A stretch of 64,000 bases of DNA from Branchiostoma floridae (taxonomy: Eukaryota > Chordata > Leptocardii > Amphioxiformes > Branchiostomatidae): positions 8,497,847 to 8,561,846 of the forward strand of contig NC_049986.1 of the NCBI RefSeq assembly GCF_000003815.2. Reading direction: 5' to 3'. The notes beneath the pieces are model-generated. The model was not told the origin of the DNA, did no database searches, and saw only the letters and a program-made list of their open reading frames with translations. Made by a program: the position numbers and the translations under genes. Positions 47,001 to 50,000 of this stretch are shown here, one piece after another (the first letter of the stretch is position 1; the number at the start of each line of letters is the position of its first letter).

Positions 47001-50000
47001 AATCTCTAAATCCCTTTTTTTATTCCAGGCTTTTCACCCTGCACCTGTGTAAAGCTACCTGTTATTGTTATGTAGTGGGCACAAGTCTTTGCAAAGTTCC
47101 AGACTTCCAATGAGTACTAAATAATGGGGGAGGGGGGTGAAAGGGGAAGTAGGAAAAGCAAGATTGATGACAGTAATTACTGTCCAAGTAAACAACTAGG
47201 AGGGCTGCCAGTACAATACCGTACAGGTTCAAAATACCCGTTGTAAAGTACTGCTGGGAGATCTACTGTGCTGAAAGATACTGTTTTGGAACAAAATGAG
47301 TAATTCCTTCAACAGAGATGGAAAAAATTTGTACTGAAAGATCATGAATACATTGTTTGGGCAATGAATCATTAATTTGAGACCTCAAAAAAATGGATAC
47401 GATACGATACGATACCTCACAGTAGTGTATATTTATAATACTGTAAATGAAATTAACATTGTAGTCAGTAATTTTAGCATTTAATCTTAGCAGTGTCAAA
47501 TATTTATCCAGCTGGCTTCAGAGTGATAATAAAATATTGCTATGATAAGATTTTAGCAATTGAAAAGTGACTCCTTAAGTCACTAAAATTAAGTTACTGT
47601 TAACAATTGAAGAATTTGAATAATCTTTACTATTCCAGTCATTGAAAACCATTATAAATGTCAAATTATTAATGTACATGTACAGGTCTGGACCTTAACT
47701 TCTGTACCTCTACCTCATTGTTGCATTCAGGCACACAGCCCAAAGTTAAACAGGAAACATTTCATTTCAATGGTGGGAAAGACTTTTTTTGTCTTCTTTG
47801 TCAAGCAGCTAAATAACCATACAAATGCTGCAAACATTTACAGCAAAATAAACACAGTCCTGTGTGTTACTTGTTATGGGACAGAACAAAGGTCCTCACA
47901 TGTATTCAGCAGTGCTTCCTCCACTTTTATTAATGAGGAAACCGTGAACCCAAACAATAGAGGGGTCAAGGCCTATACTTAACACTGTCACGGTGACTTT
48001 TATATGAGAACACAGTGCTAATGGTGATAAACCCACTCTCAAAACAGTTGATTTGAAACGAGAAGAAATTGGACAACGATTTCACTCTTATACAATGCGC
48101 AGATACAGTAGAAGCCAGTTAATTGCCCACCGTATTAACGCACACTTCTGTTAACTGCACGGAAACCCCAAATCCCAAAACAGTGCGGTCCAGCTAGATA
48201 ACTTCGCATTATTGCACCAGTCGGATAATTGCACGAAATTCACTGGCAAATAGGCCGTGCAATTAAACGGCTTCTACTGTACAAGTTATTTATACATAAA
48301 AGTATACCAGGCCTCAAAATTAACTTGTCCCAGCATTGTCCCAAAAATAAATTTCAACTGTCCCGAAGTGAGGATGGACTGTCCCAACCCTATTTTCAGA
48401 AATTATGTATTACAACAACTGTAAGTCAGAGTACGCACGCCTGACAACCGCGGGCGTGGGGAGATCGGACATTCTGATGTTGATTCGTTGATTATTTTCC
48501 TATTGTCCCAAAAGTGTCCCAAAAAGATTTTTCAGTTGTCCCGGCCTAAATTTTAGTGGCCCCGGGACATCGGGACATAGTTAACTTCGAGCCCTGTATA
48601 CATAGACAGGGCTCGAAATTTGTTTTTGGTATTGGGTGCACTGGTGCACCCAACCTAAATAATTTTGGGTGCACCACATAAAATAAAGTAGAATTAGGTA
48701 GAAAAACCTAATTACAAACCTTACTGCCCCTCTTCTGAGCACCTAAAACTTTCAAATTCTTAGACACGTACTATGACAAACATTTTATTATATTTCTAAC
48801 ACCTGGATATCAATGATATTGTGCATAATAATATGTTTGCATATATAAACCTACGAAAATATTTGGGTGCACCCTGTGCACATAAAACAATTGGGTGCAC
48901 ACTCAGTCTCTCCAATTTTGGGTGCACCTGGGTGCACATGCACCCAGTATATTTCAAGCCCTGATAGAGTAGAACATCTACAAAGGAAATGACATGGCCA
49001 CTTACTTTCCAGTTAGCAGAAGGATTATGTGCAAATAGTAAGCTCTAACACTGCCTAACATTTCACTCTACAAGCCTGAAACAAAATCAGCTCATGCAGT
49101 CAGAAAAAAGTTGTTAGGGGGCCCAAACTTATAGCACTTACCCAACAGCTATCCAACTTTCAAAAATCAAGACTACAGCATGTCCAGAACACAAGATATC
49201 AAAACAGAAGTTCTGCTGTAGCAACTTAAAAAGCTGCTGGGGGGGGGGGGGGCATTATCTTGACCATGGTTTTCCCGACTCCTACCCACCTACTAAATAT
49301 TATCACTAGGAGGTGGGTACCGGTACAAAAAATTCAGGTCCAAGTACGGTCCAGGGCCAGGTTCAAAGTGACTATCAACTCTCCTCTACTTCGCTCTTGT
49401 TCTTTTCTTGGATCTGTAAGCCCTAAAACAAGTGAACGCCTGTCCGCATAATCCGTCCATTTCTAATTGGTCCAACATCCGGTCCACTGATTTTTTTCAG
49501 GTCCGTTTTTTCTGGACCGGTTGAACAAGAAGAAAAAAACGGATTGTACCAGTACACCATACCGGTACCCATCCCTAATCGTCACTTTATCCAAAATGCT
49601 TTTCAAGTTATGTTGTTCACAGGCAGACACGCTAAGGTAATAAATCGGTAACATATTTTGGTAGTAACTGCAGCACTCATGACCTTGTCAATGTGTCAAG
49701 TGTAAGGGGGATCGGTAATGTTCCACAGGGGGGTCAGACGGGGTCAGCTGCATGGCAGCCAGGCTGATAATGTCCGACATGTTATACCCTGGGTTGGCTG
49801 GGCTCTGCACCAGGGGTGGAATGTGTCACTGGAAACATACCAGATCACATTTCTAGTGTAGGAACCAGGGTAGTCAGGGCTTGAAATACTTTTTCCTGCA
49901 TACCTGCACTGGTGCTGGTAACATTGAAACTTACCTGCACCAGACAAACTTTACCTGCAACACCCTGAATTTGGAAAGTATTGATCATACTAAAATTGTT

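Follow-up and report, generated by a model that had tools for sequence, protein, structure and literature searches.

The window, the 64-kb stretch of Branchiostoma floridae DNA analysed here, contains a family of short elements with the common tip CAGGGCTCGAAAT. Positions 48303-48968 consist of exactly two of them, E and D, which adjoin back to back, each with its own target duplications. Element E (48308-48596, + strand, 289 bp) carries TGTCCC words in a left zone (48326-48385) and a right zone (48504-48577), and the TATAC at 48303-48307 equals that at 48597-48601. Element D (48607-48963, + strand, 357 bp) belongs to the CCC class (TGCACCC words) and lies between two copies of ATAGA (48602-48606 and 48964-48968); its left end is of R type and its right end, which has the palindrome GGGTGCATGTGCACCC, is of L type. 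A scan of the window for CAGGGCTCGAAAT with up to three mismatches recovered both ends of D, E and three others. Elements A (21413-21757, + strand, 345 bp) and B (49875-50224, - strand, 350 bp) are of the GGT class (TGCAGGT words) and about 85% identical in reversed orientation, and element C (54908-55638, + strand, 731 bp) is of the AGT class (TGCAAGT words). A preliminary description of the window had listed these five elements with 5-bp target duplications. All five lie where it placed them, and the duplication is exact for A (TACAT), D and E, matches at four of five bases for B (GTAGT/GCAGT) and is found for C only with a one-base shift: no exact 5-bp repeat abuts its ends (ACAGT/TACAG), and TACAG recurs once an extra base is allowed on the left. 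Exact duplications do flank two AGT-class copies from elsewhere in the genome, L025 (759 bp) and L050 (783 bp).

The window also holds three family members beyond those of the preliminary description, all decayed. Element M (32639 to about 32899, + strand, right boundary approximate, no target duplication assigned) carries CAGGTTG words, J (53061-53357, - strand, far boundary approximate) is related to D and shows TATACC at two of its sites, and K (59438 to its right end at 59639, - strand, left boundary approximate) has words around TGTGCAC. The three partial members proposed earlier fared unequally. Two stand as single ends on the - strand: F (56034-56143, end at 56143) with GGGCAAG words about 37, 59 and 80 bp from the end, and H (44344-44453, end at 44453) with TAGCATAGTGG words about 41, 62 and 82 bp from the end. 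A search for their opposite ends gave no convincing candidate: those considered lacked either a matching duplication or the words. The third, an end with GACGGA words at 46500, was seen neither within 46440-46720 nor in the rows shown by the end scan. Tip pairs with up to three mismatches each and a duplication with at most one mismatch were observed four times in the window, compared with none in 20 simulated first-order Markov windows. Rfam and tRNA scans of the window gave nothing, and a scan of viral contigs for CAGGGCTCGAAATTAAC gave 0 matches.

Several other repeats share the window. Four copies of a roughly 180-bp repeat, whose inverted ends are of the ACAGTAGAAGCC type, occur at 10057-10236, 25712-25891, 48103-48282 and 62935-63081, the copy at 48103 lying just left of E. 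Two 56-bp inverted arms (58815-58870 and 59266-59321), 98% complementary and 395 bp apart, mark a young-looking element of another kind. A short stretch at about 19543-19657, between TAGAGCTGTGTGCCT and AGGTACACAGCCCTA and with repeated GGTACA words, seems to represent a second, unrelated family with a tip and repeated internal words, and the stretch at about 49306-49577, where AGGTCC-like words recur between TAGGAGGTGGGTACCGGTAC and GGTACCCATCCCTA ends, is possibly a third. Reverse transcriptase frames (RVT_1) lie at 5755-7392 (- strand, E 3.8e-35) and 51216-52298 (+ strand, E 8.4e-15), and a 159-bp tandem repeat of 2.9 copies occupies 23635-24103.

The words repeated within the five elements are strongly over-represented against the window background, as the preliminary description had implied in assigning many repeats of a different word to different elements. 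TGCAGGT occurs 8 times in A and 9 times in B (expected 0.06), TGCAAGT 8 times in C (0.17), GGTGCAC 11 times in D (0.03) and GTCCC 9 times in E (0.30), mostly within the outer 100 bp of each element end. Comparing the single elements A and C, which have homologous ends, we found that all eight exact TGCAGGT words of A differ by one base, always at word position 5 (six to A, two to T), whereas changes affected 0/48 of the other word positions and 65/130 positions outside the words. This restriction to the fifth base pointed to a constant TGCA followed by a variable triplet. The main words follow this scheme, with GGT in A and B, CCC in D, AGT in C and ACC elsewhere; the AGT class keeps TGT at two sites. 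The earlier statement that the family swaps the repeated word is thus better put as a kept TGCA with a swapped following triplet, the words of E, F and H lying outside the scheme.

We next turned to copies across the genome (513,431,437 bases in 431 contigs). The tip CAGGGCTCGAAAT with at most one mismatch gave 5,464 + 5,453 = 10,917 matches, compared with 94 + 92 = 186 for the reversed control. Class counts were taken from a sample of 60 stretches around exact tip matches, all on contig C1, together with the window. Among the 148 ends found there with up to two mismatches, 71 were GGT, the largest class, 41 CCC, 8 AGT and 2 TGT, and 26 had none or another word, E-type, ACC-type and decayed ends included. 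An E-type end was also recognised by eye in one other element, L055 (528 bp, duplication GATGT). Forty-six tip pairs, spanning 282-783 bp, were flanked by a 5-bp duplication, exact for 35 of them and with one mismatch for the others. The labels of their left and right ends agreed in 46/46 (23 GGT, 17 CCC, 2 AGT, 1 TGT and 3 'other'), or in 43/43 once the uninformative 'other' elements are set aside. Canonical hAT elements make 8-bp target duplications, as does the housefly hAT element Hermes. When nearest tip pairs were chosen regardless of duplication, an exact 5-bp repeat flanked 32 of 56, so that the 5-bp duplications of the window hold in the larger sample; exact repeats of 3, 4, 6, 7, 8 and 9 bp flanked 1, 0, 0, 1, 0 and 0 of the 56, the canonical 8-bp duplication thus being found in 0/56. 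TGT was rejected as a lineage of its own: L024 has TGT at both ends, but the three elements given a TGT label when words were counted over the whole element share no interior (0/3). One end, at L016:5987, has a GCGCAAGT-type word and possibly represents a further class, and in L049 an AGT-class element is split by a long inverted-repeat insertion.

The words occupy a ladder of preferred positions. Centres present in at least 20% of ends lay at 20, 29, 39, 59, 79 and 90 bp in GGT L-type ends and at 20, 29, 39, 59 and 79 bp, and also at 82, 88 and 91 bp, in CCC L-type ends; the corresponding R-type centres were 31, 42, 62 and 82 bp for GGT and 42, 62 and 82 bp for CCC. AGT ends had centres at 29, 59, 79 and 90 bp (L type, five ends) and at 31, 42, 62 and 82 bp (R type, three ends). 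The main positions are common to the three classes, and in R-type ends the GGT, CCC, AGT and ACC sites align on the same TGCA cores, with a one-base insertion in a relic of the ACC class. In the L-type end, a palindromic pair (ACCTGCATATGCAGGT or GGGTGCATGTGCACCC) stands just inside the tip, with a further site 10 bp on; the GGT R-type end carries ACCTGCACTGGTGCAGGT. The words of F and H sit near positions 42, 62 and 82 of the right ends of A and C. In the window, B, D and E are off the ladder by a few bases, and other single copies are likewise shifted.

Random low-complexity or tandem expansion of short words in old elements could produce words that are, as here, short and repeated. Copies at different loci, however, have the same words in the same places, the sequence between the words is non-repetitive, and both orientations are present. 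Words are kept between sampled genome copies of the same class, and in view of their shared positions across loci we rejected this explanation and give it next to no credence. Helical phasing was rejected as independent evidence. At 10.5 bp the ten window ends scored 0.435, compared with 0.043 (sd 0.093) under random placing (0/5,000), and the p values were 0.059 for the subset AL, AR, DL, DR, EL and ER, 0.113 for E alone, 0.674 for D alone and 0.003 for F with H, whose words were picked after looking. Because homologous ends inflate such scores, our argument rests on the shared positions and not on the period.

To relate the classes to enzymes, we inspected transposases for family ends. The hAT dimerisation domain PF05699 (Dimer_Tnp_hAT) has 33 matches in the genome, and about 1.1 kb downstream was inspected in 18 stretches (19 PF05699 rows), together with a copy on C9 and one on C6, giving 21/33 rows; two further loci were also inspected for family ends. 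In 2 of the 18 stretches the downstream sequence runs into a family tip. The match at C1:12810427 has a CCC-class end, and the full element spans C1:12810130-12813942 with ATATG on both sides. A second CCC copy with a transposase lies at C9:22186103-22189917 with TGACA on both sides. These two elements, 3,813 and 3,815 bp long and with exact 5-bp duplications, have 719-residue open frames that differ at 2 residues, a near-identity that points to recent movement. On C172, a transposase whose two pieces are 64% and 59% identical to the CCC transposase is followed by an AGT-class end. One end of this AGT element was found; a run of N breaks its frame, and its 5' end was not found in the stretch inspected. 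At C5:5154224, the relic of the ACC class is 48% identical to the CCC transposase over residues 95-299, with one stop. A decayed end with TGCAACC words lies about 1.3 kb past it, where the CCC element has about 1.4 kb; its tip is decayed and no target duplication is assigned. The CAGGTTG words of M and of L020:4801-5120 align, their TGCA cores being mostly decayed, and on this alignment we assigned both to the probable class of the relic's end.

Family ends thus lay beside the inspected transposases only for CCC (two copies), AGT and ACC. The idea that each cluster of small elements has a matching autonomous copy held for CCC and AGT, and for ACC through the relic; for GGT, no transposase was found among the 21/33 PF05699 rows and the two further loci. 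Both transposases match PF05699 (E 5e-10 for CCC, 2.9e-7 for the AGT piece) and, as an N-terminal predicted DNA-binding finger, PF25431 (zf-C17orf113; E 1.4e-9 and 1.2e-11, respectively); zf-BED is absent among the matches listed for them. The dimerisation domain and N-terminal zinc finger place the family in the hAT superfamily, and the 5-bp duplications make hAT5 its probable group. The small elements are MITE-like in being short and numerous and in having ends that match the CCC and AGT copies with transposase, GGT being without a found partner. Of the eight genome matches to zf-C17orf113, C6:21654519, C9:578550 and C11:14953183 lie outside the inspected set. Between the CCC and AGT transposases the finger is identical at 27/58 residues, and later stretches (residues 181-420) at 73, 77 and 72%; residues 91-180 are also low (57 and 52%), so the finger is not uniquely fast-changing. 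No solved structural relative of the transposase was found by sequence. Separately, a region of C6 (about 19.8-27.3 Mb) holds 11 of the 33 dimerisation-domain rows in open frames of 48-244 aa, and the flanks of five of the 11 showed no family end. The transposase fragments L094 and L095 on C6 were set aside, having no family end.

These linked ends also bear on a reading in which the words are sites for host proteins, or reflect DNA shape, and in which their differences between lineages have nothing to do with the transposase. Some ground for it comes from excerpts of PMC10368747, in which Hermes needs long ends in cells and the authors suspect host factors while leaving the cause open. In the present family, by contrast, the words stand on copies with transposase and match them by class, their main positions are fixed relative to the tip, and the difference is concentrated in the triplet. 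We consider this reading very unlikely.

We then compared the classes base by base. The 107 ends of the window and the first 40 stretches supplied the consensus sequences, with 32 L-type and 22 R-type ends for GGT and 18 and 9 for CCC. The 22 'other' and four AGT ends were left out of this comparison, the AGT consensus being set aside as one that combined both end types. Alignment of the GGT with the CCC consensus ends needs no gap for 83 bp in the L type, where one opens past this point, or for 87 bp in the R type. The two consensus sequences differ at 0/26 tip positions, 0/36 TGCA positions, 26/27 triplet positions and 23/81 other positions (triplets versus rest, Fisher p = 4e-16, with classes pre-sorted by word). 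Since the classes were sorted by word, some word difference is built in. Sorting does not account for an alignment that needs no gaps, for an unchanged TGCA and kept spacers, for opposite ends that agree, or for interiors that separate into the same classes. Within a class, the tip departed from the consensus at 1-3% of bases, TGCA at 2-6%, triplets at 3-4% and the remaining positions at 6-8%, and in R-type ends the TGCA core was no better kept than the spacers (5.7 and 6.2% versus 5.8 and 7.8%).

Related hAT5 families with different words may instead have entered the genome, or diverged, long ago, with no switch within this genome and a chassis that is common ancestry kept by transposase architecture. 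The interiors (elements minus 100 bp at each end) fit such separate old lineages: pairs alike by blastn at 1e-4 numbered 199/253 for GGT-GGT and 113/136 for CCC-CCC, and 0/391 for GGT-CCC. So do the transposases, which differ by 36% or more between classes, and the ends themselves, since in the 86 of 148 that are at least 75% like the GGT or CCC consensus, no word site bears the triplet of the other class in full. Counted anywhere, a second-class word occurs once in 5/107 ends, as a single AGT in four GGT ends and one CCC in A. On the other hand, GGT and CCC consensus ends share the spacer AAAATTGGAGCTG without any difference, whereas the CCC copies with transposase depart from it, so the small-element chassis of these two classes is close. 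Old separation is, moreover, compatible with concerted switching and alters only its place and date. We regard it as conceivable but on balance doubtful.

The reading we favour, with good confidence, is that the elements are non-autonomous (MITE-like) members of a hAT5-type family, in which the transposase sites switched specificity together while the chassis was conserved. The preliminary description had taken the elements as hAT-type, the words as putative transposase sites and their variety as a possible sign of specificity turnover or competition, and the sampled copies support hAT-type elements with turnover as far as sequence pattern can. That hAT transposases differ in their subterminal motif is already known (PMC3143072, PMC8097297, in the portions available). 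Excerpts of PMC12730594 and PMC9004415 use the name hAT5 for those hAT families of invertebrates and fish that make 5-bp duplications. The present family resembles that group in its hAT dimerisation domain, short tips and 5-bp duplications, and differs from those descriptions in its class-specific triplet at the subterminal sites of one chassis.

Its closest mechanistic parallels concern end recognition. In the Hermes excerpts (PMC10368747), the subterminal repeats are bound by finger domains, and their precise distance from the tip is important: in the octamer, three fingers hold the first three left-end subterminal sites, two of them palindromic, and a one-base-pair shift of the sites impairs cleavage. 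Strictly placed subterminal sites, a palindromic pair in one end and an N-terminal zinc finger are shared with the family described here, as far as those excerpts go (PMC10368747). Hermes has a BED finger and the site AAGT, whereas here the finger is zf-C17orf113 (Pfam) and the word is TGCA plus a triplet. For the mosquito element Herves, the text available states that the transposase binds a short repeated subterminal motif, and its authors hold that binding regions differ between hAT elements and so ensure specificity (PMC3143072); that account concerns one motif and one element, whereas here a series of related classes shares one genome. hAT finger domains at large have many different DNA specificities, and the motifs of hAT-encoded ones match their own subterminal regions, according to parts of PMC8097297. 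The CGG-binding proteins domesticated from hAT in the same excerpts involve diverse hATs and host proteins, in contrast to a concerted re-spelling in one family of ends (PMC8097297). A concerted triplet change within one family of ends was not met in the open-licence full-text literature searched, from which the exact tip sequence is also absent; subscription papers, preprints and Repbase reports, which may list individual families, were outside this scope.

Building on the observed elements, duplications, ladder of sites, concerted triplet difference and linkage of word to transposase, we propose the following mechanism. The constant tip CAGGGCTCGAAAT would mark the cut site, and a transposase multimer would dock on the ladder in each end through its N-terminal zinc fingers. 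TGCA and the spacing may serve an architecture common to the lineages, while the finger would read the triplet, which would set the transposase lineage that may use the end. When finger specificity changes in a lineage, the same triplet would be replaced at nearly all sites of both ends, with the tip, the TGCA core, the spacing and much of the spacer kept. Such a switch presumably took place within one lineage and may have been driven by escape from cross-mobilisation. Put more generally, the ends may form a modular address code, in which TGCA keeps the docking geometry and the triplet names the transposase lineage. Concerted re-spelling with one zinc-finger change would then be an escape from other enzymes and from freeloading small elements, leaving several orthogonal systems in one genome on one chassis; for this broader idea we judge the case evenly balanced. 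The pattern supports turnover of specificity, as judged from the ends and frames compared.

It is puzzling that the specificity of a transposase can change in step with that of its many scattered sites, since intermediates would be expected to bind poorly. The genome studied here would offer several outcomes of such a change built on one chassis; at least two classes have matching enzymes, and small elements in their thousands would serve as a record of it. Co-evolution of zinc finger and site, and escape from cross-mobilisation, thereby become directly testable, and the family suggests a set of orthogonal, compact transposon ends.
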